Origin: a virus
IMG/VR virus record: IMGVR_UViG_3300010332_000003
Coordinates: 1 to 43,330 of that record
Length of the DNA: 43,330 nt
Reading direction: 5' to 3' (one strand)
Shown in pieces: positions 1,924 to 36,316 of the stretch. Made by a program: the position numbers and the translations under genes. The notes below the pieces were generated by a model. It worked only from the letters and a program-made list of their open reading frames with translations. It was not told the DNA's origin and did no database searches. Position 1 is the stretch's first letter. Every line of letters starts with the position of its first letter.

Positions 1924-2074
1924 GGATAAGCTGGTCAGGATAGAAACAAAGCTCGACTTCGTGGAGCAGCTTCTTAAAAATCATCTGAAGCATCACTGGA
2001 TGGTGGAGCTTGCGCTTCTCGGAGCGATAGTGACCTTTGTCCTGAGCAAAGGCTGGAAATGGCTCGTGAGATAG
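1907..2074 (+). CDS. XhlA-like holin-associated membrane protein (55 aa)
   Basis: A short gene, MRETIKDKLVRIETKLDFVE..., ending in GWKWLVR. A charged coiled-coil-like N-terminal half with an 'R-I-E-x-K-L' heptad is followed by a His-rich linker (HLKHHW) and one transmembrane helix (VELALLGAIVTFVL). This is the layout of the haemolysin XhlA family, which works with a holin to disrupt the membrane. It overlaps the holin-like gene by 17 nt and the terminase gene by 16 nt, and CAGGAGG lies about 7 nt upstream of its ATG. Assignment rests on layout and context. Confidence 0.55.
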   Translation: MRETIKDKLVRIETKLDFVEQLLKNHLKHHWMVELALLGAIVTFVLSKGWKWLVR

Positions 2075-3402
2075 TCTATAAGTACCTCCCTAAGCAGCTG
2101 GAGTTTATGCAGCTGTGTGACAGGATCCCGTTTCCCGCGTATATTGGCGGGTACGGGTCTGGGAAGACGCATGTCTTGGTCTTGCAGATATTAAGGGAGG
2201 CGCAAAGACCGAGCCTAGGCCTGGTAGGAGCTCCGACATACCGTCTTCTGATGGACACAACGCAGAGGAAGTTCTTCGAGTTGTGTCCGCCGGAGTGGAT
2301 AAAGAGCTTCATAAAGTCGGAGAACAAGGTTATAATGCAGAACGGTACGGAGATCCTGTTCCGTACCCTCGACGCTCCGGGAAGGCTAACAAATTTGGAG
2401 TTAAGTTGGTTCGCTTTGGACGAGGTCGGAGAGGTAGACTTAGACGTCTACAGGATGCTCCAGGGAAGGCTTAGGAGACCGAATAGGTCTCACCACGGCT
2501 TCTGTGTCGGGAACCCAGCAGGACCCACGCATTGGACATACCACTATTTCGTCGAGTTAGCGAAGGAGTATCCGGACAGGTATGGTCTCGTCCAGGCATC
2601 TTCCTACGAGAATACCTTCCTGGATGAGGAATACCTAAAGGATATGGAGCTATCCTACGAAGTTGGCTCCTTATACTACAGACGCTTCGTCCTGGGAGAA
2701 TTCGTCACATTCACTGGAGCGTACTGGGCGAACTTCGACCTGAGACCTTACGAGAGAGGCGGCATGGTCCTGAAAGACAAGAGCTGCATAGGCCAGGTAC
2801 TGCAAGGACCTCCAGCAGCCTGGCACTTCGGGAAGGTCATAGACTTCGGCTATGAGCATCCTTTCGTGTGTATGTGGTATGCTACGGATGGCTACTCCAT
2901 AGTATTTTTCGACGAATATTACGAGAAGCAGAAAATAATTCGTGAACACTGCAAGAACATTTATGATAAAGAGGAGGAGCACATAAGATTAGGCTACCCG
3001 CGCCCTGCATTCGCAATAACAGACCACGACGCGCAAGCGAGGGCGGAGATAGCCAACGCACAGGACGGAGATAAGCATATTGGCTTCTCCTGCATCCCTG
3101 CGGAGAAGAAGGTAATGGAGAGTATCCTGTTAGTGCAAACGCTTATCTCCCAGCGGAGATTTTACATTACAGAAGAGTGCAAGCACGCGAGATTGGAGAT
3201 ACCGTCATATAGAGCGAAGCCGGACGTACAAAAGGAGCAGCCTGTGAAGGAGAATGATGATACGTGCGACTGCGTCCGGATGGCTTGTTGGATGGAGATG
3301 CGGCAAACTCCTGAGGTGCCGAGAGTGACTGAGCCTCAGTTCGTAAGAGAAGAAGAGCCGGAGATAGTCGACTTCGATGATTTGATAGAGATACCGCGAT
3401 GA
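2059..3402 (+). CDS. terL: Terminase large subunit
   Basis: The DNA-packaging motor and nuclease, 447 residues, normal length for the family. The ATPase half has a Walker A motif GGYGSGKT (residues 30-37) and Walker B plus catalytic acid WFALDEVGE (D121, E122). The nuclease half shows the expected spaced acids: VIDFGYEHP (near residue 264), AITDHDAQ (near 318) and a late Asp in DTCDCVRMACW. It acts at the portal vertex, cutting concatemeric DNA and pumping it into proheads. It is followed directly by the portal gene (4-nt overlap). No small terminase lies upstream; a candidate is found far away on the minus strand at the right end. Confidence 0.93.
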   Translation: MAREIVYKYLPKQLEFMQLCDRIPFPAYIGGYGSGKTHVLVLQILREAQRPSLGLVGAPTYRLLMDTTQRKFFELCPPEWIKSFIKSENKVIMQNGTEILFRTLDAPGRLTNLELSWFALDEVGEVDLDVYRMLQGRLRRPNRSHHGFCVGNPAGPTHWTYHYFVELAKEYPDRYGLVQASSYENTFLDEEYLKDMELSYEVGSLYYRRFVLGEFVTFTGAYWANFDLRPYERGGMVLKDKSCIGQVLQGPPAAWHFGKVIDFGYEHPFVCMWYATDGYSIVFFDEYYEKQKIIREHCKNIYDKEEEHIRLGYPRPAFAITDHDAQARAEIANAQDGDKHIGFSCIPAEKKVMESILLVQTLISQRRFYITEECKHARLEIPSYRAKPDVQKEQPVKENDDTCDCVRMACWMEMRQTPEVPRVTEPQFVREEEPEIVDFDDLIEIPR

Positions 3403-4820
3403 ACAAGAAGCATCCAGTCCTGGACAATTATGACAAGGTCCGTCAAGAATTTCTAACGAGGACCATTGTAGGAGAGACGCCGAGCAGGCCTATAACGGAC
3501 CCGCACGGCTTCTACCTGCAGAACCCGAACTTCCTCTTTGAGCGGTATGCAGGTGTCGACAAGCTCTTCCATACTCTAGTAAAGAATGTTGTAGAGGACC
3601 CGGACTTCGCCCTCAAGAAGGATCCAAAGGTCTACGAAAGGATGCTCCGGGATCCTCAAATCTATTACTGCTTGGGAGTTCGGAAGAGCGCGGTATCTTC
3701 CCTGGAATGGCACATAGCTCCTCCTGAAGGGATGGAGCAGGATGAAATGGCACGGCGGATCGCCAACGAATGCAACAAGAGACTGAAGAGAGCACCTCGT
3801 TTTGAGGAGTTGATCGATAATATCATGGACGCTCTCCTACCGGGAGTGTCTGTGAATGAGATAGTCTGGACCTACGACAAGGATAAGGATCTCTACATCG
3901 TGAAAGACCACTTCCCGGTGAACAAGGATAGAATCCTCTTCGACAAAGACGGGAGACTAAAACTAAAGCAGCCGGGGAAGTGGCAAGGTGAATATGTTCC
4001 GCCTTACAAATTCATTGTACATGTAGTGAACCTTGCGGACGGCTCCTGGCAGAAGCCTCACACTATCGGATACTCCTACTACGGAAGAGGCTTAGCTGAC
4101 ACTCCGCTCTACCACTACTTCTACTTCAAGATGATGGCTCTAAGATATTACATGAAAGCGATGGAGCGGAATGCGTCTCCTGTGAAGATCTTCTACTCCG
4201 GAGCGCAAAACACCTTGATGGCTAAGAAGATGGCTTCTATCCTGACCGCTTTGCAAAATGACTCCGTGGTAGGAATACCTGGGAAGAAAGGAGACATGGC
4301 TGTCGATATCCTGAGGCTTGTAGGACAGCCTGCTCTCTTCACCAGCTTTATAGAGTATATTGATAAGCTGATTACCAGGACAATCCTGTTCCAAGAGCTG
4401 ATGACAGAGATGCCTGCTGTCGGCTCGTATGCCGCCGCGCGCGTGCATGCTTCCGTTTTCGCAAGAATAAGCGCGCTGGATAGAAAAAAGGTAGAAGAGA
4501 CTCTCACCAGGACCTTGGTAAGGTGGGATATACAGCTCAACTATCCGCAGCTGAAGGAAGACTACTACCCCAGGTTCCGGTTTAAGGAGAGCGCGACGTT
4601 AGACACCGCGGCTTTCTTACAGACAGTTCAGATGGCACTGGATTTAGGCTTGGATGTAAGCGAAGCGCAGGTAAGGGCGGCTACTGGATTGCGTGCGCCT
4701 GGTCCTGGCGAGAAGTCAATGCTGGATCTTGTGAAAGATGCCCGGAAGAAGCTCGAAGAAGAGGAAGGAATACGACCCGAAGTACATCAGAGAGTACCTG
4801 AAGGAGCTGAGACAGCATAA
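3399..4820 (+). CDS. Portal protein, DUF935 / Mu gp29 type
   Basis: A 473-residue portal protein that forms the dodecameric DNA gate at one capsid vertex. The DUF935 (Mu gp29-like) signature is seen as DPQIYYCLGVRKSAVSSLEW near the start (about residues 85-105), ALLPGVSVNEIVW (about 144-156), the Pro/Val-rich HFPVNKDRI, and the late YAAARVHASVF helix that usually contacts the crown/wing. It overlaps terL by 4 nt. In Mu the next head gene is the gp30/SPP1 gp7-like minor head protein; none is recognised here, and a set of unusual basic proteins takes that place. Confidence 0.88.
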   Translation: MNKKHPVLDNYDKVRQEFLTRTIVGETPSRPITDPHGFYLQNPNFLFERYAGVDKLFHTLVKNVVEDPDFALKKDPKVYERMLRDPQIYYCLGVRKSAVSSLEWHIAPPEGMEQDEMARRIANECNKRLKRAPRFEELIDNIMDALLPGVSVNEIVWTYDKDKDLYIVKDHFPVNKDRILFDKDGRLKLKQPGKWQGEYVPPYKFIVHVVNLADGSWQKPHTIGYSYYGRGLADTPLYHYFYFKMMALRYYMKAMERNASPVKIFYSGAQNTLMAKKMASILTALQNDSVVGIPGKKGDMAVDILRLVGQPALFTSFIEYIDKLITRTILFQELMTEMPAVGSYAAARVHASVFARISALDRKKVEETLTRTLVRWDIQLNYPQLKEDYYPRFRFKESATLDTAAFLQTVQMALDLGLDVSEAQVRAATGLRAPGPGEKSMLDLVKDARKKLEEEEGIRPEVHQRVPEGAETA

Positions 4821-5157
4821 AGTTCCCTTCCAGGTACAGATGCAGTTCCTCTCCCGTATCTACGGCGGGAAAGGCGGCTATACCTCCGAGGAGCTGTACA
4901 GGATTGCTACAGGCAAGAAGCCGAAAGGCGGATACTACATATACCCTTTGGTGAAGAATGCTCCGCCGGAGGTGAATAGAATACTGCAGGAGACATATAG
5001 ACGGCACAGAAAGAAACACGAGAAGCTGATAAGAGAAGGGAAGATGACCCCTCAGGAGTCCAAGAAGATAGCTGCAATAGCTGCGTGGAATGCTGTGAGA
5101 AGAAGAGGCTATAGAAGGGTCATGAAGCTAGTCCCTGTATGGACAAGGAGTAAATAA
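4738..5157 (+). CDS. Basic hypothetical protein overlapping the portal gene
   Basis: A 139-residue Lys/Arg-rich protein that starts inside the portal gene and overlaps it by 83 nt in another frame, unusually long here. Residues 10-45 (KEYDPKYIREYLKELRQHKVP) form a helix, then a Gly-rich loop (GGKGGYTSEELYRI), and a C-terminal helical part MTPQESKKIAAIAAWNAVRRR. The last part loosely recalls the ChaB-type AW..V..rY helix, not enough to assign. A later ATG at 4840 would avoid the overlap but lacks a better SD. Likely a minor head component. Confidence 0.55.
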   Translation: MPGRSSKKRKEYDPKYIREYLKELRQHKVPFQVQMQFLSRIYGGKGGYTSEELYRIATGKKPKGGYYIYPLVKNAPPEVNRILQETYRRHRKKHEKLIREGKMTPQESKKIAAIAAWNAVRRRGYRRVMKLVPVWTRSK

Positions 5158-6305
5158 TGAGTATAGCAAAAGGAATAGGCTTGATGGCAAAAGGAGCAGC
5201 AGTAACTGGCGCTGCAGCGGCAAAAACTGCCGGGAAGCTGGCTGCTCTGAATGTTCCTTTAGGTACTCTTCTTGGGCTCTACTTAGCCCCCAAGCTGTGG
5301 AAGAAGCAGAAATATGCTGCGCGCGGCTCTGTATGGAGACAGTTGGAAGCTGCTGCTATAAAAGCGTGGAGACGCAGTCATCGTCTTGCCGAGAAACGCC
5401 TCCCTGTTGGGATGGTAGTTCCTCCTACATTAGCAGGCGCATACCTTGGGAGAAAGATTATGGGGAAGAAATACTCGCTGGAAGGAGTTAAGAGATCAGC
5501 GAAGTATCTAGGCAAGGAGATAGCGGAAGCGGCTCTTATAAAAGCCCCTTTGGCGGGTCTCGCGACCTGGTTCTGGATAAAGCTCTTAGGGAAGATACCT
5601 GACGTACAGGTCGACACAGAGGAGATTGGGAGAAAGCCCCTCGGCGCCTACATGGCGATGATGGACACGATAGAGAAGTATGGAGCTACTTTCTCTCCGG
5701 CTTTCCTAAAGGAGTTGCAGCAGAGACTGTCCCAAGCCATTAACAGGACCGCGCTGAGAAGTGCAAGAGCCCTCCTTCTCTTCACCTTAGGGTATGTCGC
5801 AGGAATTAGGTCAAGGAAATACATTTTGCCGGACCAGAGGATTTATGTGGAGCCGCCGAGAGAATATTCTCTCCCCGCTGCTCTGAAGCTGGGATGGAAA
5901 TATCTTGGACCAGCTGTCAATTTAGCGGAAGCCGGTTATCTCACGAAGTCTCTGGTGAAGAGGGAGAGGTGGTTCCCACAGGAGCAGTATCAGTTAGGAA
6001 CAGCGCTGAGGTTCCTCAAAAGCCCTAAGTTCCTATCGACGTGGAGCAAGGTAGGAAAGCACGCAGGGACAGCAGCCAATGTTCTCTTCGCAGGGCAGAT
6101 GATTTCAGAGTTCATGCCCAGGAAGCGGCCGCAGTACTACCCGCAGCAGTATTCCTGGAACAAAGCATGGAAGATCAAGATAACACCGAAGCAGAGAGCA
6201 GCGATAGCTGCTGCGGTTGCTGCTGCGTTGACCGCAGGTCCCGCAGGCTACATCCTAGGCTCCAAGAGATTGAAGAGAAAGGTGAAGGAGGCTATCGGTG
6301 AGTAG
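5157..6305 (+). CDS. Basic multi-segment head-module protein A with repeated [KRE]-Y-[SA]-L motifs
   Basis: A 382-residue, very basic Ala/Gly/Lys-rich protein, first of a coupled cassette (starts 1 nt inside the previous stop). It is built from alternating glycine-rich hydrophobic helices and basic amphipathic helices. A short motif recurs at the joints: KQKYAARG (Y53), GKKYSLEG (Y106), SRKYILPD (Y222), PREYSLPA (Y237), EQYQLGT (Y278), QQYSWNK (Y332). Several follow a Pro-x-x-AGxxxGRK helix, for example TLAGAYLGRKIMGKKYSL (91-108). No known family recognised. The layout suggests a precursor cut by the capsid protease, or packaged internal/ejected membrane-active proteins; both are inference. 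Confidence 0.7.
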   Translation: MSIAKGIGLMAKGAAVTGAAAAKTAGKLAALNVPLGTLLGLYLAPKLWKKQKYAARGSVWRQLEAAAIKAWRRSHRLAEKRLPVGMVVPPTLAGAYLGRKIMGKKYSLEGVKRSAKYLGKEIAEAALIKAPLAGLATWFWIKLLGKIPDVQVDTEEIGRKPLGAYMAMMDTIEKYGATFSPAFLKELQQRLSQAINRTALRSARALLLFTLGYVAGIRSRKYILPDQRIYVEPPREYSLPAALKLGWKYLGPAVNLAEAGYLTKSLVKRERWFPQEQYQLGTALRFLKSPKFLSTWSKVGKHAGTAANVLFAGQMISEFMPRKRPQYYPQQYSWNKAWKIKITPKQRAAIAAAVAAALTAGPAGYILGSKRLKRKVKEAIGE

Positions 6306-7110
6306 TGCAATTATAAAAGTTGTTAGACCAAAGTCAGCATACCGCAAGAAGCTAGCGGATGCTTTGCGGGCACTTCGCCCTATGCATAGATTTGTGAAGG
6401 AAAACTTACCATATCCTTGGATCATAGCGCAAGGAGCTGTCCGCACGGTTCCGTTTGCAGCTCTCGGGTACGTTGCAGGAAAGCGCGGGAGAAGAAGAAG
6501 AACGCAACACTATTCTCGCGCTGCTTCGACTTTAAAAGCTTGGGAGCGCGGGCGGCGAATGTACAGGGATATGATATGGAGGTCCCGTCTCGCGCGCGTC
6601 GTGCTCCACCCGCTTTTCACCTTGTTAGCACCTTCTGCTTCCGTCGCCATAGGCGCACGCATAGGTGCCCGGAAGGAAAAATATGCACTGAAACCGTCGA
6701 GAAAGTGGGCAAAGCGAATACTCGCTATAGAAATAGGCAGAACGAAAGGCAAAATCCTACCTCTGCTGAGAGACCCTGCATACAGGAGAAGGATAGCACA
6801 GGAACTGAGATGGCTACGCCACGAAAAGAGGTGGGTGCTGAATAAACGAGGGAAAATTATATCAGCTTTGACCCCTCCCGCCGCTTTCGTCAGCGGGGTA
6901 GCTCTCGGCGCACTTACGACAAAAACAAAGAAGTATGCGGCGCCTTTCACAAAAGAAATAAATACTATACGCGGGCTAGGTATCAACCTCAGACTAGCAC
7001 AAAAGAAGATAATCCCTCGTGGCTTCAAGATAGCTCTCGCGTCGGCGGTACCCCTATATATCGCTGGAGCAGTAGTGGGACGAAAAATAAGGAGAAAGAA
7101 GCATGCATAG
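6298..7110 (+). CDS. Basic head-module protein B with [KRE]-Y-[SA] motifs
   Basis: A 270-residue protein of the same composition and plan as its neighbours, starting at GTG 6298 with AAGGTGAAGGAG upstream and overlapping the previous gene by 8 nt. Motif copies: TQHYSRAA (Y72), KEKYALKP (Y129), TKKYAAPF (Y213). Each comes right after a small-residue hydrophobic stretch: FAALGYVAGKRGRRRR (53-68), SASVAIGARIGARK (113-126), FVSGVALGALT (197-207). It ends with LYIAGAVVGRKIRRKK, the same Pro/Ala/Gly-x-GRK unit seen in protein A and in the protease-scaffold. Predicted to bind DNA or membranes through its charge; function unknown. Confidence 0.65.
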   Translation: MSSAIIKVVRPKSAYRKKLADALRALRPMHRFVKENLPYPWIIAQGAVRTVPFAALGYVAGKRGRRRRTQHYSRAASTLKAWERGRRMYRDMIWRSRLARVVLHPLFTLLAPSASVAIGARIGARKEKYALKPSRKWAKRILAIEIGRTKGKILPLLRDPAYRRRIAQELRWLRHEKRWVLNKRGKIISALTPPAAFVSGVALGALTTKTKKYAAPFTKEINTIRGLGINLRLAQKKIIPRGFKIALASAVPLYIAGAVVGRKIRRKKHA

Positions 7111-7807
7111 ATACGCACTACCAGTATTAGCGAGAACTACAGCATTAGCAAGAGTGCCGCGTCTAACAAGACGCGTTCCCTGGACAAGACGTCTATGGGC
7201 TACCTTACGGAAACCGAAAGTGGCTCTCCCGCTAGCAGCGGGTGCAGGATTCATAGCGGGCAGAGCTTCAAAGGAATATGCTCTACGGTATGCTAAGCTC
7301 CCGAAATTTATAGCGAGAAGACTGCGTAGACGACTGGCGAAAAAGCTGATCAAGAAAGCCGGAAAAGAAGCTGCCGCTGCAGCTGCGAAAGGTCTGATTA
7401 CAGGTGCAGGCGTCTACGGCGGTTACAGGGTCGCTAAGCGCCTTGCAGAGAGAAGACAGTATGCTCTCTCGTCAGGTATATGGGAAGGTCTTCCCTACGT
7501 GAGGAAAAAGGGACCTATAGCCTCCCTCATTCCTATGCCCAAATACCTCGAAAGAGTCCTAGATCCTGAGGCGCAGAAGTGCTACTCCTTGAAGAAAAAA
7601 GACATCCTCAAAGTCCTGGGGATAATTGCTCCTTCTGCAGTAGCTGGAGCTGCTGGCGGATACCTCGCAGGAAGAAGACGGGAGAGACTGCGGATCGGAA
7701 GGAAGATATTGAGAGAGGCCGGCATAGATCTTCCAGAGGGAGCCCTTGGACAGCAGCCGCGCTTCGGAAGAACAATTCTCGAAAGTCTCATAGGTGAAGA
7801 AGAATGA
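7103..7807 (+). CDS. Basic head-module protein C with [KRE]-Y-[SA]-L motifs
   Basis: A 234-residue protein, third in the cassette (8-nt overlap). It carries four motif copies: MHRYALPV at the very N-terminus (Y4), SKEYALRY (Y59), RRQYALSS (Y120) and QKCYSLKK (Y161). Glycine-rich hydrophobic helices are at about residues 41-54 (ALPLAAGAGFIAGR), 91-110 and 174-190 (IAPSAVAGAAGGYLAGR). The C-terminus turns acidic (ESLIGEEE). Having a motif at residue 4 fits the idea that motif positions mark ends of mature segments. No family recognised. Confidence 0.65.
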   Translation: MHRYALPVLARTTALARVPRLTRRVPWTRRLWATLRKPKVALPLAAGAGFIAGRASKEYALRYAKLPKFIARRLRRRLAKKLIKKAGKEAAAAAAKGLITGAGVYGGYRVAKRLAERRQYALSSGIWEGLPYVRKKGPIASLIPMPKYLERVLDPEAQKCYSLKKKDILKVLGIIAPSAVAGAAGGYLAGRRRERLRIGRKILREAGIDLPEGALGQQPRFGRTILESLIGEEE

Positions 7808-8454
7808 CAGAAAAGGAACTAAGCCAAGCCGCCAGAAGGATATTGAGAAGGGCGTTAGCAAGACACGCTAAGTTCGGACCTACGCCCGAAGGAAGGGAAG
7901 CTGCCAGGCGTCTCTTCCGGGAGTGGAAAAGAGCTGGATGGGGTTTCTGGGCTATTCGGGATGCTGCTCGTCGCGAATCTCGGAGAGCTGCTGGGAAATT
8001 CCTGAAAGCGACAAGAGAAGCTGCAGAGAGGGCGGCCAAAGCAAGGAGAAAAGCCATGCTTGGCGCGGCGGCAGTCTTCGTGCCGTCTGCTGCAGCTGGA
8101 GCAGCTACGGAAAAGTATCGGTTAACTCCCTTCTGGAAGGCGCAGGTAAGGAGAGCTTTAAAGAAGCTCGGTAGGAAACCGACAGGAGAGGAATTGAGGA
8201 GGCTGATAAGAGAAGCAAGACGCTTGCAGAAACAGGCAGCACGCGAGGTCAAGGAAGCTGCTGGACCGCTCCGCAGAGCATTCCGCACAATGCACGCGGA
8301 GAGGTTGGCCGAAGAAGCGGCTAGGTCCGCGGAGTCCTTGGAGCGGAGTGCCAGGAGATGGAAAAAGGTAATTCCTCTGGCCGCTCCAGCAGGTTTTGGA
8401 GGCGGCTATCTGGTAGCATCGCAGACGAGCAATGACAGAGGAGTGCTGAAATGA
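7804..8454 (+). CDS. Basic helical head-module protein D
   Basis: A 216-residue Ala/Arg-rich protein, almost entirely helical, overlapping its neighbours by 4 nt on each side. It has one clear motif copy, TEKYRLTPF (Y105), again directly after a small-residue hydrophobic segment (MLGAAAVFVPSAAAGAA, 85-101). A second Gly-rich segment, PLAAPAGFGGGYLV, sits near the C-terminus. The Arg/Glu-rich helices at residues 5-85 and 115-185 could form coiled coils or coat DNA. Function unknown; cassette membership is clear from composition and layout. Confidence 0.65.
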   Translation: MTEKELSQAARRILRRALARHAKFGPTPEGREAARRLFREWKRAGWGFWAIRDAARRESRRAAGKFLKATREAAERAAKARRKAMLGAAAVFVPSAAAGAATEKYRLTPFWKAQVRRALKKLGRKPTGEELRRLIREARRLQKQAAREVKEAAGPLRRAFRTMHAERLAEEAARSAESLERSARRWKKVIPLAAPAGFGGGYLVASQTSNDRGVLK

Positions 8455-9053
8455 GACCCTTCCGAAGATTTCGCTTATGGCTAAAAGGCGCAGGCGCGAT
8501 GCGCAAGAAGCCCATACGCGAGGCGGTTATGAGCGCCACGAAAGGCTTCACAGGAGCTGCAAGACCTCCTGCAATGAGAGCGGCGCGTCTAACCGCAAGA
8601 CGTCTCCTTGCACAGAGGAGAAGGAGGTTGCTGAGAAGAGTAGGTGTAGGCGTAGGCGTCCTCGGAGCAACAACAGCAGCAGCCAAAATGAAAGGAAGGA
8701 CCTTGTTCCCAGAACCGCCGAGCGTAGAGGCAATGGAACGCGGGTACGGACCTTACTACGAGAACCAGGAAAGGGTAGAGATGTACCCTTTCGTAAGCGA
8801 AGCTCAGAGACGCTGGATGTGGCTGCATCACCCAGAGATGGCGAAGAGATGGGAAGAGCACACACCTAAAGGGAAGAAACTGCCGGAAAGGAAACATCCT
8901 GTGAAGTGGGTGTGCCCAAGATGCGGCCATACGACCATGGCACTAAAGCAGCCCACTTGCAGCAAATGCGGAGTGAAGATGAAAGAAGTCCTGAAAGTGC
9001 AGCACGAGATAGTTGAGAAAGCTATCTCCTATGGAATAGCGAGGAGAGTATGA
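8451..9053 (+). CDS. Head-module protein E: basic N-terminus, SEAQRRWMW motif and zinc ribbon
   Basis: A 200-residue protein. Residues 1-65 are Arg/Ala-rich like its neighbours and end in a glycine-zipper helix (VGVGVGVLGATTAAA). Residues 115-142 hold SEAQRRWMWLHHPEMAKRW followed by a Lys/Pro stretch, a motif that recurs in many phage proteins of unknown role. The C-terminal 50 residues contain a four-cysteine zinc ribbon, CPRCGH ... CSKCG. No YSL copy is seen, though RVEMYPFVSEA resembles the context. It joins the basic cassette to metal-binding nucleic-acid modules. The role is unknown. Confidence 0.65.
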   Translation: MRPFRRFRLWLKGAGAMRKKPIREAVMSATKGFTGAARPPAMRAARLTARRLLAQRRRRLLRRVGVGVGVLGATTAAAKMKGRTLFPEPPSVEAMERGYGPYYENQERVEMYPFVSEAQRRWMWLHHPEMAKRWEEHTPKGKKLPERKHPVKWVCPRCGHTTMALKQPTCSKCGVKMKEVLKVQHEIVEKAISYGIARRV

Positions 9054-10573
9054 AAGTCAAGATACCAAAACCACCAGAGCTAGACCCGGAATGGAAGAGA
9101 CTGTACCTCTCCTCTCTCCAGGTTTTGAGCGGGCGGGATGCTGACGACCCTGAAGCGAAGAAAGCGATCAAGCTCCTACGAGAGCTCGACGCTGCGCTGT
9201 TCAGGACAGGGAGAGGCGGGTGCTGGATACCTGAGCCTGTCGACGGGAGGTATCCGGAGATAGATACTACAAAAATGAGTCTCAGCACCCTGAGCAGGGC
9301 GATAAGGAAGAAAGCGGAGAACAGGGAGAGGGAGTGGAAGCACCTCAGACAGTACCAGTACGAAGATGTTGACACAGAGAAACTCAAAGGCTATTTTGCG
9401 ATGCTACTGCGGCAGCTAAAGTTAGCGCGGCAAGGAAGAGGGAGGGAAAGTATAGACATAAGAAAGAAACTCTTCGCGGTAGCGGATGAATTGGAGAAGA
9501 GAGGAGTGCAAGTGGATATTCCAGAAGCTGTTCCTATGAGGTACTCCCTCACACTGCCGAAGGACTGGCCAGACGCGTACGCGGAGGCATTGAGGAGGTT
9601 CGCGACAGCTACCAGTCCTGTGGAGAAGTCGAAGGCTGCCGGTGATTTGGCAATCCTCTCGCACGTCGCAAGGATGTGCGGAAGAGGAAAGCCGTGGTAT
9701 CCGAAGAGCACGGATGTGACAATAGACCCGGACAAAATCTCTTTGCAGAAGATAAAGCGAGCCGTCAGGGCGAATACTTCGCCGAAGATAAGAGCCAGAA
9801 CCTGGCGCTCTATCCTACGAGAAATTTCCCCTGGTACTGAGCTGTGGCGGGAAGCTGCTCCTGAGACAGCTCAGTACGAGAAGGAGATTGAGATACCGAA
9901 AGGCTTCGGCAAGATACCTCCTGGCTGGAACGCAAGGAGATTGTACATAGAACTGAAGAAGATGGGTCTGTCGGACATAGACGCTCTCGCACAAGCGCTG
10001 ACGGTAGCTCCCTGGACACCCGGGCGGACATCGCGGTACCTGGGCGTTGTCACTCCAGCGGAGCTTAAGAAGAAGCTCACAGGACGCCACAGACCCACGC
10101 TAAAGGATGTATCGCCGGAGGAATGGGAGATGGTGGGATTCCAACCTCTGAAGAGATACGAAATTCTGTGCTACGCGGAAGGCGAAGAAGCCGGCCGGGA
10201 GTGGATAAAAGCGCATCCTATCTACTCTCGGTGGAGGTATTTTTGGAACAGACTGAAGAGGAAGCTAGGTCTGATAAAGAAATCCCTCCAAATGGAAGCT
10301 CTACCAGCGATAAAGAGGCAGATGGCTATCCAGACCCTTGCAGCTCTGCAAGGAGAATTGCCGATGCCGTCTCTGATGGTAGGACATACTCCTGTGACGA
10401 GACAAGGCTTCTTCGACTTCCTGCAAAGCTATCCGAATGTACAGCTAAGAGCAATGCGCAAGAAACTGCTGCAGAGAGCGGCAGTAGAGAAGGACCCGGC
10501 TGTTCAGAAGGAGCTGAAGAAACAGGCAGCACGAATAGAAGCGGAGCTAACTTTGAGAGGAGCTCCGCTATAA
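9050..10573 (+). CDS. 507-residue head-module protein with an internal duplication
   Basis: A large helical protein, 4-nt overlap with the cassette. Two units are homologous: residues about 11-105 and 168-262 share a GRGxxW signature (54-59 and 211-216), then K-[MI]-SL-x3-[ SI]-x-RA-[IV]-R (75-86 and 229-240) and an R-x-W-x3-LR end (W96 and W252), a constant offset of 154-157 residues. The second unit begins immediately after VPMRYSL (Y165), the motif of the upstream cassette. The rest is helical and basic, ending TLRGAPL. No family recognised. It occupies the place of a Mu gp30-like minor head protein, so an internal or minor capsid role is likely. Confidence 0.65.
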   Translation: MKVKIPKPPELDPEWKRLYLSSLQVLSGRDADDPEAKKAIKLLRELDAALFRTGRGGCWIPEPVDGRYPEIDTTKMSLSTLSRAIRKKAENREREWKHLRQYQYEDVDTEKLKGYFAMLLRQLKLARQGRGRESIDIRKKLFAVADELEKRGVQVDIPEAVPMRYSLTLPKDWPDAYAEALRRFATATSPVEKSKAAGDLAILSHVARMCGRGKPWYPKSTDVTIDPDKISLQKIKRAVRANTSPKIRARTWRSILREISPGTELWREAAPETAQYEKEIEIPKGFGKIPPGWNARRLYIELKKMGLSDIDALAQALTVAPWTPGRTSRYLGVVTPAELKKKLTGRHRPTLKDVSPEEWEMVGFQPLKRYEILCYAEGEEAGREWIKAHPIYSRWRYFWNRLKRKLGLIKKSLQMEALPAIKRQMAIQTLAALQGELPMPSLMVGHTPVTRQGFFDFLQSYPNVQLRAMRKKLLQRAAVEKDPAVQKELKKQAARIEAELTLRGAPL

Positions 10574-10627: not shown

Positions 10628-12544
10628 ATGAAGTTCAAGATTGAACCTGAAGACGGCGGGTACTTCTTCACGATAAAGGAAGTACCCATCTTCAAGACGC
10701 ATACTGATAGAGGCTATATTTGTGACGACCAGTGGATGCGGGATGCTATCCGCAACCACCAGAAGGACAAGGAGAATGACTGGCTTCCTGTTGTCATCAT
10801 TGGGCACAACAGGAAGCACCTAGGAGAGAAAGAAGCTATCGGTTTCGTTGACAACCTGAAGTATGACGAGAAAAAAGGAATTCTGTATGCTGATCTGGTA
10901 CACATCCCCGCGGAGTACAAAGAGAAGATACTCAAGAACGCTTATCCAAGTCGCTCCGTGGAGGTGTTGCCAAAGTCGCGTAGGATACTGGCGGTAGCGC
11001 TTCTTGGAGGAACTGCTCCTCACTTTGCGCTGCCCCAGATGAGGTATAGTCACAAGGAGAAGTCGGTGTGGATACCTTATGAGGAGAGTGATGAGATGGA
11101 AAACAAAGAGGAATTTGACGAAAGGACGGCAACTATTGCGTACGAAGCGGCACGTCAAGCTGTAGAGGACGCTCTCGCAGAAGATGAGGGAGTGGAAGTC
11201 TACGAGCTGACGCCGGACGAAGCGTACGAGCTGTACGAAGAATACGGCGACGAGCTGGAATTCTTCGAAGATCCTGTTACAGGCGAAGTATACACTATCG
11301 GCGAGGACGGTGTATACTATGCCTGGCCGCGTGCAGTCTGGTCAGCTATTAAACGTGCTGCGAGAGCAACAGGACGAGGAATTTCCCGAGGAGCAAAAGC
11401 CGTAGGACGAGGCGTCGCGGCAGCTGGAAGAGGAATAGGACGAGGAGCTGCCTGGACCGGCCGTAAAATCGGCGGAGGTGCTGCAGCTGCCGGTAGAGGC
11501 GTTGCAGCTGCTGGCCGCGCAGCAGGAAGAGGAGTAGGCCGGGCGACACTCAGAGTTGCTGGCGTTCATCCTGCTTTTTGGGATTTCCTCTCTACAAAAC
11601 AGAAAGCAGCTATTCTAGGAACAGTAGGCGCGCTAGCAGGTTCTGTCCCTGCTTCTTACATCGCCGGAAGGTATGTAGGAAGGAAAAAGGGACTATCGAG
11701 AAGTCGCGGTATCGGAAGAGTAGCGCGTGCTATTGGCTTAGGCGCAGCAACACTCGCGGCCCCTATCCCAACAGCAGCATTCCTCGCCGGAAGGATGAGA
11801 GGCGCTGCAGAGAGAAGACAGCGGCATGAGTTAGACGAGATTCCGGAATACTACGAAGAAGACTATCCGGAATTCTACCTCGACATGGAGACCGGTCAGG
11901 TCCTCGACTATGACGGAAATGAGGTAGGTGTCGTGGTCCCTACCGCGCCGGATTCTCCAGAAGACTTGCCCTCGTCTCCTAAACCTGTGAATCCTAACCT
12001 CAAGATAAACCCTGAGGATGTAGGGGAAGAGGCTGACGAGGAGACAGGCCTGGAGAACCCGGTAGGCGAGCCGGAGACTGACCTGATTGAGGAACTGGAG
12101 CCGCGTGAAACGGCCGAAGGAATTGAGGCCAGTGAGCTCTTTGAGGATCCTGTGAATTATGAGTTACAACGCAAGGTTGAGAAGCTCGAGAGAGCCAACG
12201 AGCTCCAGAAAGCGGCTCGCCGACGCGAACATTACGAAAGCTACTTGAAGGAGAAGAAAGCACAAGGCTATCCTGTTGGCGACATCGAGGCGACAGTGGA
12301 TTACCTCATGTCGCTCACAGAAGAGCAAGCAGAACAATACATGCAGCTGCTTGAGAGACAGCCTCGTATTCCTCTCGGGAAGACGCCCGATAGGGTACAG
12401 TCTTACGAGATTGGTGAAGCGATAGAAGAAGCCGAGTCTGACTACGAGAGAAACAAAGAGGTGTACGAGGCTATGGGCGTAACGCCTGAAGATCTGCAAG
12501 CAGCTGCGTGGGTTAGAAACGGACCTAGCTTTAGGAGCGCATAA
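10628..12544 (+). CDS. Capsid maturation protease fused to scaffold (Mu gpI-like), with a basic Gly/Arg insert
   Basis: A 638-residue protein. Residues 1-140 look like a Mu gpI-type prohead protease: LPVVIIGHNRKH (His60), AIGFVDNLKYDEKKGILYADL, YPSRSVEVLP (Ser108/Ser110 region) and LAVALLGGTAPHFAL. Residues about 160-230 are acidic. Residues about 235-375 are very different: Arg/Gly/Ala repeats (GRGVAAAGRGIGRGAAWTGR and similar), then AG-x3-GRK helices like those of the 5157-9053 cassette. An acidic linker and a C-terminal coiled-coil region (about 515-600) follow, as in phage scaffolds. The protease also contains QMRYSHKE (Y140), close to the cassette motif. It should assemble inside the prohead, then cut itself and partners. 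Confidence 0.75.
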   Translation: MKFKIEPEDGGYFFTIKEVPIFKTHTDRGYICDDQWMRDAIRNHQKDKENDWLPVVIIGHNRKHLGEKEAIGFVDNLKYDEKKGILYADLVHIPAEYKEKILKNAYPSRSVEVLPKSRRILAVALLGGTAPHFALPQMRYSHKEKSVWIPYEESDEMENKEEFDERTATIAYEAARQAVEDALAEDEGVEVYELTPDEAYELYEEYGDELEFFEDPVTGEVYTIGEDGVYYAWPRAVWSAIKRAARATGRGISRGAKAVGRGVAAAGRGIGRGAAWTGRKIGGGAAAAGRGVAAAGRAAGRGVGRATLRVAGVHPAFWDFLSTKQKAAILGTVGALAGSVPASYIAGRYVGRKKGLSRSRGIGRVARAIGLGAATLAAPIPTAAFLAGRMRGAAERRQRHELDEIPEYYEEDYPEFYLDMETGQVLDYDGNEVGVVVPTAPDSPEDLPSSPKPVNPNLKINPEDVGEEADEETGLENPVGEPETDLIEELEPRETAEGIEASELFEDPVNYELQRKVEKLERANELQKAARRREHYESYLKEKKAQGYPVGDIEATVDYLMSLTEEQAEQYMQLLERQPRIPLGKTPDRVQSYEIGEAIEEAESDYERNKEVYEAMGVTPEDLQAAAWVRNGPSFRSA

Positions 12545-13434: not shown

Positions 13435-14490
13435 ATGATAGCATTTGACATGAATGTTATAGAACGTGGCGTGCGCGGAATCTTCGCTCGTGAGTTCATC
13501 ACGAGACAGAGAAAAGCGAAGTACCCGCTGTTCTGCACTATCGTCGACAGCGACAAGAAGGAAGAAAAGTATAATGCCATTTCAACCCTTCCGACGCTGT
13601 CGGAGATGAAAGACGAGAGGAAGCTCGCGGGCTTCTCAGAGTACACCTACACCATCACCAACAAGGTGTACGCAACTGGGATCAGGGTCCCGCGGACGCT
13701 GTTCGAATTTGACCAAACAGGACAGCTCCGTACCCTGGTTCAATCTCTGGGGGCTCGCGTAGCTAACTTCCCGGACAAGCTGATCTGGGCTCTGATAGCA
13801 AGCAACGACACTTGCTATGACGGCTCGAAGTTCTTCTCAACAACCCATGACCTCGGGAACCATGTGGAGCAGTCCAACATCGTAGAAGGACTGTTGACCA
13901 ACTCCTTGCTATCCGCAAGCACGAAAGAGGACAGGGATAATGCTATTGCAGCAGCACAGATCTCTGTCAACAAAGCTATCGCGCGGATGGCGGAGTTTGA
14001 AGACGACAGAGGAGAGCCTTGGCACGACGACATAGAGCCTGAGAGCTTGATCATCCTCTGTCATCCGGAAGCAAGGTTCTTCATCCGTTCGGCCGTCGAG
14101 GCTGCTCAGATCAACGCGACCGGAAACTTGATGCTGAAGCAGGTTGGGAAGGTCCTGGCTATCAACCGTCCAGAGATCTTCAAAGATTCTGGCGGCACGG
14201 TCAGGAAGGGAACGTTCTACCTGCTGAAGGTGGATACTCCGATACAGCCGTTTATCTTCCAACGCTTCGGTCCGAAGGTCAACTTCCCGGATGTAATTCC
14301 GGAAGAGGACAAGGCTGCACTCCAAGCTCTCCAGGCTGTAGAGGTACAAACGATCATGCGGACGGGCTCCGACATTGACGCTATGACCTTCTTCAACGAC
14401 GAGTTCTTCTTCGGAGCACGCGTCATCTACAGCGCTGGGTTTGGAATGTGGCAGAACGCTGTACGGGTGGACGCTAACGACGCAGAATGA
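13435..14490 (+). CDS. Major capsid protein, Mu gpT-like
   Basis: A 351-residue HK97-fold major capsid protein of the Mu gpT family. Visible family features: a mixed N-terminal arm, EEKYNAISTLPTLSEMKDER (the 'y..l...P.m.ew.g.R' segment), YTITNKVYATGIRVPRTLFE, a long helix LVQSLGARVANFPDKLIWAL, and TCYDGSKFFSTTHDLG, the most conserved part. It forms the capsid shell. SD GGGAGGTAGG precedes the ATG. Gene order protease/scaffold, decoration, capsid, DUF1320 is that of Mu-type heads, though the tail is not Mu-like. Confidence 0.85.
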   Translation: MIAFDMNVIERGVRGIFAREFITRQRKAKYPLFCTIVDSDKKEEKYNAISTLPTLSEMKDERKLAGFSEYTYTITNKVYATGIRVPRTLFEFDQTGQLRTLVQSLGARVANFPDKLIWALIASNDTCYDGSKFFSTTHDLGNHVEQSNIVEGLLTNSLLSASTKEDRDNAIAAAQISVNKAIARMAEFEDDRGEPWHDDIEPESLIILCHPEARFFIRSAVEAAQINATGNLMLKQVGKVLAINRPEIFKDSGGTVRKGTFYLLKVDTPIQPFIFQRFGPKVNFPDVIPEEDKAALQALQAVEVQTIMRTGSDIDAMTFFNDEFFFGARVIYSAGFGMWQNAVRVDANDAE

Positions 14491-14927
14491 TCACAATAGA
14501 TGACATAATGAAAAGGTACGACTCCTCGTACGTTAGAAGCCTCGCGGAAGACGAGGGAGACACTGGCGAGGAGTGGCAGGACAGAATTAATGCGCTTATC
14601 GCGTCAGCGGAGGCTGAGGTAAAGAACATGCTCAGTCTCCAGTACTCCGAAGAGGAGTTGGAAAACAACGACGCGATAAAGGCGATCTGCGTCGCACTGA
14701 CAATGTATGCGCTGGAAGGGAGACGAGCTGGCAGGCATACACAAGCCGTTACGAATGACTACAACCAGGCGAGAGCGCAGCTACAGATGCTCCGCGAAGG
14801 AGAGATGAAGCTTCACAACGTGCCGCAGCTCCTCCCTTCCGTCTCTCCGGAGGAGCCTGGTCACGACTACTTAGGGTCAGGCTTCTTCGACGGGCTACCA
14901 GGAGTTGACGAGGAATGGCAGACATAA
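14487..14927 (+). CDS. Head-tail connector, DUF1320 / Mu gp36-like
   Basis: A 146-residue protein with the DUF1320 layout: an N-terminal ITIDDIMKRYD, an all-helical core with DRINALIASAEAEVKNML, AIKAICVALTMYALEGRR (typical 'alt.yrly.rr'), and a long Pro/Gly-rich tail. Family members form the ring below the portal. It overlaps the capsid gene by 4 nt and the tail gene by 13 nt. Confidence 0.72.
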   Translation: MITIDDIMKRYDSSYVRSLAEDEGDTGEEWQDRINALIASAEAEVKNMLSLQYSEEELENNDAIKAICVALTMYALEGRRAGRHTQAVTNDYNQARAQLQMLREGEMKLHNVPQLLPSVSPEEPGHDYLGSGFFDGLPGVDEEWQT

Positions 14928-15376
14928 TAGTACCAGGACCGTGTACCATTCACTGGGCAGGAAATGACCTAGGCGCAACGAAGTCTGGGATTGTCATCCG
15001 GGCTACCGTCACCTGGGAGCCTATAACATACGATGGCACAGGAGGCGTCCCTGCGGATTTCCTCCTGACAGCTAAAGAGTGCACAGTGGAAACGGTCCTG
15101 GTGGAGCCGGACAAGATAAAAGCAGCCGCTCCCTGGATAGACAAGCTTCTGAAATTTGATCTTCCAGGACGGCTAGGCTCTGACGAAGCTGGGAAGCTGG
15201 AAATATACCACCGCGGAGACGCAAATCCCTCCTGGGTAGCGGACAAAACCATACCCAGGATAAGCAGCAACATAATGCTCAGCTCAACGCAGGAATTTCA
15301 GCTAGGTGTCTCCTTCCTCGTCATCCCGCAATGGGTAGACGACCACTGGGAGCTATTTTCTAAGGTAGGCGTGTGA
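14915..15376 (+). CDS. Tail tube-like protein 1
   Basis: A 153-residue beta-sandwich protein beginning IVPGPCTIHWAGNDLG and containing ITYDGTGGVPADFLL, the Gly/Pro/Asp turn common to siphovirus tail tube proteins, followed by a strand with ECTVETVLVEPDK. It is paralogous to the next gene, which shares the VPGPC start, the D-L-G turn, W-x-P-I-[TS]-YD and a FLxIPxW ... WELFS ending. Rings of this protein would stack to form the tube. Which of the pair is the main tube subunit cannot be told. Confidence 0.65.
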   Translation: MADIIVPGPCTIHWAGNDLGATKSGIVIRATVTWEPITYDGTGGVPADFLLTAKECTVETVLVEPDKIKAAAPWIDKLLKFDLPGRLGSDEAGKLEIYHRGDANPSWVADKTIPRISSNIMLSSTQEFQLGVSFLVIPQWVDDHWELFSKVGV

Positions 15377-15837
15377 TGTTTCACGTACCAGGACCGTGTA
15401 AAGTAGAGTGGAACGATCTTGATCTGGGAGTATGCCGAGCAGGTGTTACTATAACACCTGCGTCGCAATGGTCTCCTATCTCCTACGACTTAGGAGGGAA
15501 CAGTCCTTTAGACTTTATTTTCGCAGGGAAGGCGGCTACTTGCCATCTCGAAGCGCTGGAGCCTGCGAAACTAGATGCTATGTGGGATGCTATAGGCGGC
15601 TTATTCGCTATGGAGCCAGGGACACTGGCTAGCGAAGTGGGGAAGGTTTTGAAGATCACAGAAAGGGACGGCTCCGTATGGCAGGCGGACTGCTCCGTGC
15701 CACAGGATCCTGGACAACTGGTACTGGTATCTACTTCGGAAATCATAGTGCCAGTCGCCTTCCTTATCATACCGAAGTGGCAAAACAATAGATGGGAATT
15801 ATTCTCTACTGTTCCGAGTTACTTGGAGACCGCATGA
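15376..15837 (+). CDS. Tail tube-like protein 2 (paralog)
   Basis: A 153-residue paralog of the preceding gene: FHVPGPCKVEWNDLDLG, WSPISYDLGGNSPLDFI, ATCHLEALEPAKLDAMW, then FLIIPKWQNNRWELFS at the end, where the first copy has FLVIPQWVDDHWELFS. The ATG at 15376 overlaps the previous stop by 1 nt; a GTG at 15373 is an alternative start. The duplicate may be a minor tube, tube-terminus or decorating subunit. Confidence 0.62.
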   Translation: MFHVPGPCKVEWNDLDLGVCRAGVTITPASQWSPISYDLGGNSPLDFIFAGKAATCHLEALEPAKLDAMWDAIGGLFAMEPGTLASEVGKVLKITERDGSVWQADCSVPQDPGQLVLVSTSEIIVPVAFLIIPKWQNNRWELFSTVPSYLETA

Positions 15838-17579: not shown

Positions 17580-18010
17580 ACATAATGAACAAGATAGTAG
17601 ATATCTTGAAGCAGAATATAAAGGATGCGAAGATATACCTCTCGCCTTCTCCTATCGTGTATCCTACGATGGAGAAGTACGAGATACAGGTTGTAGACAG
17701 AGGCTCCAGTGTTCTGGATCATAATGGCTGTGTCGTAAGAGTAGCTTTTACAGTAGGCGTCGCTCTGTTCACACGTCTTCCCAAGGACGCAGGAGGAAGA
17801 TACGACAGGATACTGTCAGACACGACGGAAAGTATCCTGGAGAAAGAGAAGAAGGTCATTACATGTCTGGATGGGGAATATCTCGATGATATGCTGGCGC
17901 GTCCTCTCGTATACATGCAGGAGAGCGCTGTACAGGAGACAGGACCAGGATTTCTCCTCAAGGTAGTAGAGTTCACAGGCGGGGTAAATAGAGACTTCGG
18001 AGGTGAATAA
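17573..18010 (+). CDS. Tail terminator/completion-like protein
   Basis: A 145-residue protein with an N-terminal helix (MNKIVDILKQNIKDAKIYL), mixed strands (PTMEKYEIQVVDR, VVRVAFTVGVALF) and a helix ESILEKEKKVI, the alpha/beta plan of tail terminators (gpU-like), which cap the tube and join it to the head. GGAGG lies upstream of ATG 17573; an internal ATG at 17585 is possible. It overlaps its neighbours by 7 nt and 1 nt. Family assignment is tentative. Confidence 0.45.
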   Translation: MVNIMNKIVDILKQNIKDAKIYLSPSPIVYPTMEKYEIQVVDRGSSVLDHNGCVVRVAFTVGVALFTRLPKDAGGRYDRILSDTTESILEKEKKVITCLDGEYLDDMLARPLVYMQESAVQETGPGFLLKVVEFTGGVNRDFGGE

Positions 18011-19131
18011 TGCCGTACCCTGATATGCCATACGGGCGGATGGAAAGGGCAATGATCTGGCAGTCCCTTTCCGCTGCCGCGTCTGCTGCCATTCCTAGCG
18101 GATGGGCTATGCTCAGCGGCGCGTCTGCTGGGCTGGGCGTAGGAAGCATCTTCGGCCCGTTCGCAGGGATGGCTGGAGCTGTCGCAGGAGCTGGTGTAGG
18201 CGCTCTCATTGCTGTCTCCCAGAGGCTCGTAGAGGTAGGGAAACAGTTAGTAGAGAAGACTATTACACTGACCAATACCTTCAGCGACGTGTCGCCTGCT
18301 TTCGCCCAGATGAGCCTGGAGCAAAGGAGACTAACCACGGAGATAAGAAAGAAGTGGGCGGAGGAATTGGAGCCTACTGCTCGTGCTTGGCATGAGCGAG
18401 CGATGGAGTTCAGGAGGAGACAAGCGGAGATAGAAATAAGGTGGCACCGAGCTGTAGGGAGGCTTATAGATGACCTCAAGAATGTAGGATGGCACCTCGC
18501 TGACTTCGGACAGAGGGTAGAGGAAGTAGGCGTCAGGGTAGCAGAATATTTCGGAAATGTATATAGACAGCTAAGACGTCTGTGGACATGGAACAGGACG
18601 CAAAGAGAGTGGGCGGAGGTCCCGGGTCCTCTAGGAGAGCGCGCGAGAGAGATTTGGACAAAGGAGCGGCTCTTCTGGGAAGCATTCCGCGAGAAGTACC
18701 CAGACCTCGCTAAGACGTTGCGCGCCACTCTGATATTCGCAACGGAGACAGAGGGGTTACGAGGACTCAGGATGCTCAGCCGAGCACAGCGCGAGAAGCT
18801 TGTAAAAGAACTCGAGGAGGAAAGGCTTGTAGGATATGTAGACACTTCTCTTATTCGTAGAGCAGGAAGCCCAGAGGAGATAATCGCGGCTATCCTCGAG
18901 GAGGTAAAGAGGAGAGAACGACAGGAAGAAAGGAGAGAAGGAGTAGGCGTCCCTCCGGTGCGTCCGCAGGTACATGTGAATACACAGGTGAATGTAAAAG
19001 CGGATCCAGAGGCGATATCCAGGGCAGTCCAGGACATACACGGTAGAGTAATGGACGCCCTGGATGAGGTAAGAAGAAACCTGGATATGGAAGCTTATAT
19101 CTTGAGGAAGAATACAGAGTGGACAGTGTAA
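18010..19131 (+). CDS. Tape measure protein (short)
   Basis: A 373-residue protein with the features of a small tape measure: an N-terminal small-residue hydrophobic region (about residues 18-70, with GASAGLGVGSIFGPFAGMAG) that could insert in the host membrane, then long charged helices (RRRQAEIEIRWHRAVGRLID and similar) and a C-terminal VNTQVNVKADPEAISRAVQD, the beta-then-helix end often seen in these proteins. At about 0.15 nm per residue the tail would be roughly 55 nm long. Its place after the chaperone and before tail-tip genes fits. A 354-codon open frame on the opposite strand is a shadow. Confidence 0.7.
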   Translation: MPYPDMPYGRMERAMIWQSLSAAASAAIPSGWAMLSGASAGLGVGSIFGPFAGMAGAVAGAGVGALIAVSQRLVEVGKQLVEKTITLTNTFSDVSPAFAQMSLEQRRLTTEIRKKWAEELEPTARAWHERAMEFRRRQAEIEIRWHRAVGRLIDDLKNVGWHLADFGQRVEEVGVRVAEYFGNVYRQLRRLWTWNRTQREWAEVPGPLGERAREIWTKERLFWEAFREKYPDLAKTLRATLIFATETEGLRGLRMLSRAQREKLVKELEEERLVGYVDTSLIRRAGSPEEIIAAILEEVKRRERQEERREGVGVPPVRPQVHVNTQVNVKADPEAISRAVQDIHGRVMDALDEVRRNLDMEAYILRKNTEWTV

Positions 19132-29330: not shown

Positions 29331-29635
29331 AAGACATTAGAGAAGTTGTTCAGGAGAAGATCCTGGAGATACTGACACGAAAGGGTATATATCTCTTAGA
29401 TCTTGAGAGCTTGAACCATACAGGATACACTTATGTAGGAGAACCGTGTGACGAGCCTTTCCGCAAGAGACACTACTACATCTATACACCGGATGGCTGG
29501 CAGGAGTTTGAGTCTGCCAGCACGAAACCTTCTCGTGCGCTCAAAGGAAGGCTCGTTATTGTCTATCACGAAGATACCTACCCAGACGGGAACGTGAGCA
29601 GGAGAATGACGATAGGATACGCAGATGTTAATTAG
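29327..29635 (+). CDS. Hypothetical protein (102 aa)
   Basis: MKDIREVVQEKILEILTRKG, then HYYIYTPDGWQEFESAST and RLVIVYHEDTYPDGNV. GGGAGG lies 6 nt before ATG 29327; the in-frame ATG at 29285 is inside the previous gene. A helix followed by a beta meander. It overlaps the helicase gene by 11 nt, so it may be a helicase partner by position only. Confidence 0.55.
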   Translation: MKDIREVVQEKILEILTRKGIYLLDLESLNHTGYTYVGEPCDEPFRKRHYYIYTPDGWQEFESASTKPSRALKGRLVIVYHEDTYPDGNVSRRMTIGYADVN

Positions 29636-36314: not shown

Positions 36315-36316
36315 CC

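Follow-up and report, generated by a model that had tools for sequence, protein, structure and literature searches.

What is encoded by the run of basic genes between the portal gene and the capsid protease gene of an uncultivated Mu-type phage (record IMGVR_UViG_3300010332_000003), and why does a short tyrosine motif recur in their products? The whole record of 43,330 bases was analyzed and is referred to here as the window. An initial annotation had described four or five consecutive, coupled genes for basic, membrane-like proteins and had proposed that they are precursors cut in the prohead at the motif. The gene run was confirmed: five consecutive genes, A to E, with products of net charge +30 to +55, overlap one another by 8, 8, 4, and 4 nucleotides (nt), E overlaps the following gene F by 4 nt, and gene A overlaps an upstream open reading frame (ORF) of 139 amino acids by 1 nt. 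The motif proved to be real and to lie between short hydrophobic segments. In the reading that we prefer, and to which we give an even chance, the cassette proteins are precursors that the head protease cuts into short basic single-helix peptides packaged with the DNA.

Enrichment of the motif in A to E was judged against 2000 composition shuffles. The form [KRE]Y[SA]L occurred 5 times against 0.26 expected, [KREQ]Y[SA]L 6 times against 0.27, and [KREQ]Y.L 9 times against 1.36, and none of the 2000 shuffles reached any of these counts; plain Y.L was weakly enriched (11 against 4.75; 11/2000 shuffles). Since [KRE]Y[SA]L gives only 5 sites in A to E, the at least 12 copies originally reported require a looser motif, and a looser class ([KREQHC]Y[SA] or [KREQ]Y.L) gives 15; all six sites first named as examples were found in the sequence. 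Among 30 other window ORFs (7989 amino acids), [KREQ]Y[SA]L was absent (0.84 expected) and Y[SA]L occurred 5 times (3.60 expected; 153/500 shuffles). Per-position enrichment around all Tyr residues was weak. A DNA-level repeat was rejected as the source, because the codons vary between sites; Tandem Repeats Finder (TRF) detected one 18-nt two-copy row in the window.

Because the motif was first noticed in the window, these statistics are post hoc, and relatives provide the fair test. A terminase query retrieved L002 (55.6 kb), whose portal and terminase are 49% and 58% identical to those of the window, together with two distant loci in which no such cassette was seen by eye. A capsid alignment query retrieved L010/L017 (46.8 kb), whose capsid protein is 65% identical to that of the window, L002 again, and two distant phages. 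Further viral scans returned the L002 contig only, and no relatives were found in viral scans with gene A alone or the portal alone, or in genome contig scans. In both relatives the cassette is divided differently, between the same Mu-type portal and protease: L002 encodes La (1080 amino acids, net charge +118), Lb (545, +47), and Lc (576, +38), and L010 encodes Ma (1099, +91), Mb (167, +18), Mc (133, +11), and Md (794, +46), with the protease Me and the scaffold Mf as separate proteins.

With the motif definition taken from the window alone, Y[SA]L occurred 8 times in La to Lc (1.05 expected; 0/2000 shuffles) and 5 times in Ma to Md (1.08 expected; 13/2000 shuffles). In the pooled relatives (13 against 2.11), Y was the only residue to stand out among the 20 X[SA]L patterns (p = 3.7e-7; next 0.06). 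Plain Y.L was not special (21 against 13.8; rank 23 of 400 in an X.Z scan), so the signal needs Ser or Ala between Tyr and Leu. The 14 other head and tail ORFs of the L002 contig held a single Y[SA]L (1.91 expected), and such controls indicated that the strict motif is nearly confined to the cassette, with Y[SA]L in L010 less so. Chance or composition was thus rejected by the shuffles, the other-ORF controls, and the held-out relatives, the last being two phages that the initial annotation never saw.

Hydrophobic segments were called over 15 residues, and their relation to the sites was tested with 3000 randomizations. A to E together contain 16 short, moderate segments (15-residue hydrophobicity means of 1.14 to 2.09), but the description membrane-like does not suit the whole cassette; F has no such segment and looks like soluble-domain repeats. 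Over the three phages, sites lay between segments and never within one, and 20 of 28 neighboring segment pairs were split by a site (random, 13.0; 0/3000), a count that omits Mf, G, and Ld, the last two being protease/scaffold proteins. In the window, a Y motif followed 9 of the 16 segments at a distance of 4 to 25 residues (random, 4.33; 34/3000), and either a motif or the protein's own C-terminus followed 12 of 16 (random, 5.90; 5/3000). The motif had been said to stand mostly after a helix of the shape AG-x3-G-[RK]; by eye, this shape was seen at several window segments and not at all of them. A general rule that every motif follows a helix was rejected, since its significance did not extend beyond the window. 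Cleavage at the looser sites would give fragments of 53, 53, 116, 15, 41, 54, and 50 residues from A, 72, 57, 84, and 57 from B, 4, 55, 4, 57, 41, and 73 from C, and 105 and 111 from D, with exactly one segment per fragment in B and D.

The same segments could belong to unprocessed multi-helix DNA- and membrane-associated ejection proteins with a role like those of P22 and T7, the motif serving as a structural cap or linker in a helix-turn architecture. The short and moderate segments agree with such an architecture, as does the fairly regular motif-segment distance in the window; the combination of Tyr, Ser/Ala, and Leu is, however, more specific than a cap requires, and the loops and ends around the A-to-E segments are all net positive. 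With such loops, one multi-span topology would break the positive-inside rule, and separate single-span peptides would not. We regard the cap or linker explanation as unlikely.

Fused domains offered another view of the sites. The domain encoded by the 139-amino-acid ORF, here called the O domain, has its own gene in the window and is fused into long cassette proteins of both relatives, aligning to La 255-387 (50% identity, E = 1e-43) and to Ma 11-139 (56% identity, E = 9e-49). It is preceded by RYAL (252) and followed by QYFL (389) in La and followed by KYAY (142) in Ma, each of the three fused edges having a Y motif at most 3 residues away. In a systematic test of six edges of natural termini, a Tyr lay within 3 residues at five. 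Post hoc, an apparent second copy of the F domain was seen by eye to start after RYSL, KKHA at the natural C-terminal end of B aligned with KKYS of A (A 28-107 with B 188-270, E = 0.008), the C-terminus of Ma aligned beside GRYSL of its paralogue Mb (E = 3.6e-8), and a segment common to La and Lc was found to start at YA[RK]F in both. In the protease/scaffold protein of L002, EYSL (209) and EYALD (323) bracket a basic hydrophobic insert, two sites that G of the window lacks. These edges favor a boundary function of the motif, as support and not as proof.

A module array was found in the L010 scaffold Mf (688 amino acids), whose seven hydrophobic segments are accompanied by eight YALD sites (residues 68, 123, 154, 220, 284, 342, 409, and 470). 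The module plan is an amphipathic stretch, a hydrophobic helix, usually an Arg/Lys run, and then YALD, a typical unit being PGMWQQLKAMAKAHPWKTG, then a GLGLAGLPLGTALLINYL-like helix, RRRRR, and GYALDD. Six of the eight sites follow the Arg/Lys run of a module, one follows PRE past the module, and one (154) lies in an acidic linker; with the 31-residue linker interval excluded, the sites are 55, 66, 64, 58, 67, and 61 residues apart. Ungapped comparison of 21 module pairs left 4 with an identity of 55% or more, and in these the nonsynonymous divergence (dN, 0.09 to 0.53) lay below the synonymous divergence (dS, 0.95 to 1.27); the other 17 pairs were set aside as shifted in register or too divergent. 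Assignments of Mf to DUF6338 (33.8 bits, cut-off 26.5) and CD1375 (24.4, cut-off 22.5) were rejected: no single stretch passes the cut-off, so these sums, and some families below the cut-offs, were taken as repeat effects.

Many copies per protein beside basic runs could mark a binding or encapsulation signal that docks basic internal proteins, uncut, on the shell, the scaffold, or the protease; the proteins would then stay whole, coat or condense DNA, and act as head core proteins. Tyr and Leu are common in docking motifs, the motif also occurs within the scaffold proteins of L002 and L010, and a few Y[SA]L sites occur in the other L010 head proteins. Docking, however, need not separate helices, and the sites are placed between segments, where modules end, and at the edges of certain domains. 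Such a signal has some probability, though we hold it to be rather unlikely.

A capsid-type protease is encoded beside the cassette. The N-terminal part of G matched PHROG 3894 (E = 9.5e-9), PHROG families 3894 and 976 being found in the window and L010 and family 976 in L002, and the protease domains of the two relatives are each 58% identical to that of the window, with H60, S110, and E112 invariant. Co-occurrence of the cassette with Mu gpI-like proteases had been named as a check. A capsid-type protease adjoins it in all three phages, and the relation of G to Mu gpI is based on gene position and the PHROG head maturation protease families; the structural model suggests a weak resemblance to T4 gp21 and herpes capsid proteases. 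That model was modest (mean predicted local distance difference test score [pLDDT], 62). Foldseek found no match for it under 0.001 in the PDB; VIA-align placed T4 gp21 first (Z 5.7, 108 residues, root mean square deviation [rmsd] 4.3) and an unrelated protein second (Z 5.0), with 13 of 50 rows being herpes protease; and BFVD gave a phage capsid maturation protease (probability 1.00, E = 1.2e-4). As all Z scores fall under 8, the caution line for VIA-align, the gp21/herpes likeness is support and not proof. In L017 (8134-9100), the protease, the stretch after it, and the scaffold are spread over different frames, through sequencing errors or a frameshift, and form a single ORF in the window and L002.

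Taken as precursors, A to D, and probably also E and portions of F and G, would be chains of modules, many of 50 to 85 residues, linked through the site [KREQ]-Y-[SA]-L. In a typical module, a basic amphipathic stretch is combined with a single small-residue hydrophobic helix and a run of Arg/Lys. Cutting in the prohead would be done by the head maturation protease from G, the simplest position being between Tyr and Ser/Ala of each site; we infer that acidic scaffold pieces would then leave the head while the basic peptides remain on the DNA. Basic single-helix peptides would be delivered together with the DNA and might aid its entry by inserting in the host membrane, or might condition the newly infected cell in some other way. 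From the sequence, cutting at the Tyr sites appears fairly probable, packaging of the peptides could go either way, and membrane action on ejection is conceivable but somewhat doubtful. More tentative is the fuller picture in which capsid-protease cleavage of the polyproteins releases twelve or more distinct, short, basic, single-helix membrane peptides, which travel in the head with the DNA and, on infection, come together in the membrane of the host as a genome-entry kit. The originally proposed precursor role thus stands in part, favored by motifs between segments, at some domain edges, and at the ends of array modules, and by the adjacent protease.

A number of results weigh against this precursor role. 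The spacing between some sites is 4 or 15 residues, no site occurs in E, and among the 19 fragments expected from A to D at the looser sites, 11 contain one segment, 2 contain two, and 6 contain none. Separation of segments by sites was weak in L002 taken singly (7/10 pairs; 84/3000) and not significant in L010 alone (4/7; 859/3000), and with Y[SA]L as the only site, 12 of 28 pairs were split (random, 7.9; 22/3000). The tendency of the motif to follow a helix was not significant in L002 (5/13; 330/3000) or in L010 (3/9; 1301/3000). In the systematic edge test, the strict motif, there defined as [KREQ]Y[SA], lay within 5 residues at only two of the six edges (random, 0.23; 347/20000). The array copies of Mf share descent and are therefore not independent, the insert of G in the window is without the Y sites that occur in L002 and L010, and at the RYSH site of G (G140) the Ser is not kept in the relatives (YG and YE). 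Two terminal stretches in the relatives are net negative (La C-terminal end, -3; Mb N-terminal end, -1). Outside the cassette, the lone Y[SA]L of the L002 contig is QYSL in the capsid protein (strict motif, 1 against 0.34), and seven noncassette head and tail ORFs of L010 held three Y[SA]L sites (0.79 expected; 36/1000), none of them strict.

Searches for known families agreed with the initial statement that the family was not recognized. Nothing under E = 0.05 was found in Pfam for A to D and F, the best PHROGs match of these proteins was no stronger than E = 0.014, and no match was obtained in tblastn of nine proteins (A, B, C, F, G, the 139-amino-acid ORF, La, Ma, and Mf) against 50,697 phage records. 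In Pfam and PHROGs, no curated family fits A to D and F, and tblastn showed no homologue of the nine proteins in the phage records. An NCBIfam search covered E, F, G, the 139-amino-acid ORF, and four L017 proteins. Further qualifications of the membrane-like label came from E, whose C-terminal end is zinc-ribbon-like by weak matches below the cut-offs and which also matched PHROG 1375 at 9.7e-4, and from the 139-amino-acid ORF, whose C-terminal half is perhaps ChaB-like. Its model placed ChaB (1sg7) first of 48 chains, a weak match (Z 5.8, rmsd 2.6, 59/75 aligned; next row, 4.6); a Pfam search of this ORF gave no ChaB match, and BFVD gave nothing under 0.001 for its model. La starts (L002 6093-6800) with a zinc-ribbon-like region and a HEVAH sequence (SprT-like, weak, E = 0.037).

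Table 1. Genes of the head region and tyrosine motif sites in the window
Feature	Position	Strand	Remarks
Terminase	2059-3402		Terminase_3 match
Portal	3399-4820		Portal_Mu, PF06074, E = 1.8e-67
139-amino-acid ORF (O domain)	4738..5157	+	Own gene in window; C-terminal half perhaps ChaB-like
Gene A	5157..6305	+	382 amino acids, net +44, six hydrophobic segments, six loose Y-motif sites
Gene B	6298..7110	+	270 amino acids, net +55, four hydrophobic segments, three sites
Gene C	7103..7807	+	234 amino acids, net +36, three hydrophobic segments, five sites
Gene D	7804..8454	+	216 amino acids, net +34, two hydrophobic segments, one site
Gene E	8451..9053	+	200 amino acids, net +30, one hydrophobic segment, no site, SEAQRRW domain, zinc-ribbon-like C-terminus
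Gene F	9050..10573	+	507 amino acids, net +33, no hydrophobic segment, apparent domain repeat
Gene G	10628..12544	+	638 amino acids; N-terminal head maturation protease, basic/hydrophobic insert, acidic scaffold-like C-terminus
Two small proteins between G and capsid gene			Second is a Phage_cement_2 match
Mu-like gpT capsid protein	13435-14490		PF10124, E = 1.3e-34
KYAA (A53)	5310..5321	+	Motif site
KYSL (A106)	5469..5480	+	Motif site
KYIL (A222)	5817..5828	+	Motif site
EYSL (A237)	5862..5873	+	Motif site
QYQL (A278)	5985..5996	+	Motif site
QYSW (A332)	6147..6158	+	Motif site
HYSR (B72)	6508..6519	+	Motif site
KYAL (B129)	6679..6690	+	Motif site
KYAA (B213)	6931..6942	+	Motif site
RYAL (C4)	7109..7120	+	Motif site
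EYAL (C59)	7274..7285	+	Motif site
RYAK (C63)	7286..7297	+	Motif site
QYAL (C120)	7457..7468	+	Motif site
CYSL (C161)	7580..7591	+	Motif site
KYRL (D105)	8113..8124	+	Motif site
RYSL (F165)	9539..9550	+	Just before apparent second copy of F domain
RYSH (G140)	11042..11053	+	Directly past conserved end of protease domain

Both Mu-type markers, Portal_Mu and the gpT capsid protein, are present in the window. Phage_Mu_F (PF04233) matched none of the three records (the window and its two relatives), which may be fragments, and 4 of 14 control genomes. In Ochrobactrum phage POA1180, the portal-protease interval holds only an annotated head morphogenesis gene, and, judged by position, L012 and L013, the distant loci, may be arranged in a similar way, each with a gene for 444 to 451 amino acids and another for 152 to 156. 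This setting bears on the notion that the cassette products are nonvirion membrane proteins, with a role either at the host envelope or in holding proheads to the membrane during assembly. Hydrophobic segments together with basic loops would fit it, but the cassette lies within the head operon, at a place occupied in another Mu-type phage by a head morphogenesis gene, and the module array of L010 sits within a scaffold protein; we find this notion very improbable.

Elsewhere in the window, adjacent genes at 14915-15376 and 15373-15837 encode 153- and 154-amino-acid proteins, alike by eye and perhaps a duplicated tail tube gene, of which the first, unlike its neighbor, has a weak Ig-domain PHROG match. 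A short tape-measure-like protein of 373 amino acids (18010-19131; PHROG 25241, E = 2.5e-4) suggests a short tail. Genes of a 7-deazaguanine pathway, probably for DNA base modification, lie at 26360-27007, 35399-36904, and 39418-40023, with QueC and FolE above the NCBIfam cut-offs and QueD-like, QueE-like, and second QueC-like genes below them. A 444-amino-acid SNF2-type helicase is encoded at 29625-30959, its best PADLOC matches being the DpdE and ZorD helicase regions.

Trimming of head proteins is a known activity of prohead proteases, but for most phages little has been learned about how small head proteins help DNA across the inner membrane. Here a helix-plus-Arg module appears to have been multiplied, shuffled, and separated by one short site. 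If the precursor role is true, the site would be a tag for spotting head-packaged peptides in other uncultivated phages and would indicate a Tyr-type specificity for a gp21-like protease fold. Neither a Tyr-type site nor strings of single-helix modules were found described in the portions of the open-license literature searched.

The nearest parallels are the processed internal proteins of T4 and SPN3US. In T4, the prohead protease gp21 cuts the internal proteins IPI-III, at L/I-X-E sites and not at Tyr as proposed here. Shared features would be a gp21/herpes-type head protease (here by a weak model) encoded in the same operon as the precursors, a recurrent short site enriched over chance in the putative precursors, and cutting of the head protease itself, putative for G. 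No string of single-helix basic modules is known in those systems. In SPN3US, by the sections of the report drawn on here (PMC10052503), the protease gp245 cuts gp45, gp47, gp53, and gp54, some head proteins have several short recognition sites, another likeness, and gp245 prefers Ser at P1', resembling the Ser after the proposed cut; its sites are A-X-E, unlike Tyr, and 13 of 14 cuts remove N-terminal propeptides and leave one large mature protein, unlike strings of modules. No sequence relation of the cassette to described internal head proteins was found by Pfam or PHROGs (A to D and F) or by tblastn (nine proteins).

The Mu head module comprises the portal gp29, the MuF protein gp30, the protease/scaffold gpI/gpZ, and gpT. 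The loci described here share Portal_Mu and Mu-like_gpT and the order portal, cassette, protease/scaffold, capsid, but the place of MuF is taken by a cassette of 5.4 kb (A to F) to about 6.6 kb (relatives). The ejection proteins gp7, gp16, and gp20 of P22 and gp14 to gp16 of T7 are head proteins with glycine-rich hydrophobic segments that enter the envelope; the cassette resembles them in such segments and differs in that they are few large proteins and not motif-joined modules, and no PHROG or Pfam match to their families was found in the cassette. Polyvalent proteins, as presented in the consulted parts of Iyer et al. 2017 (PMC5512222), are long and multidomain, many belong to phages that package DNA by a portal-terminase system, they are thought to be packaged and delivered, and the authors liken them to polyproteins; they carry enzyme domains and embedded peptidases, unlike the mostly basic helical modules here. 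Effector- or enzyme-type domains recognized in the cassette amount to the weak SprT-like HExxH region of La and the zinc-ribbon-like matches of E. A virion-borne kit of membrane peptides has, to our knowledge and in what we found, not been described in tailed phages and would be analogous to membrane-active maturation peptides of animal viruses. In adenovirus, the viral maturation protease cuts the core and pVI precursors in the particle, freeing basic DNA-bound and membrane-active peptides, and if the precursor role holds, the cassette would work alike in an unrelated virus, with no kinship claimed.

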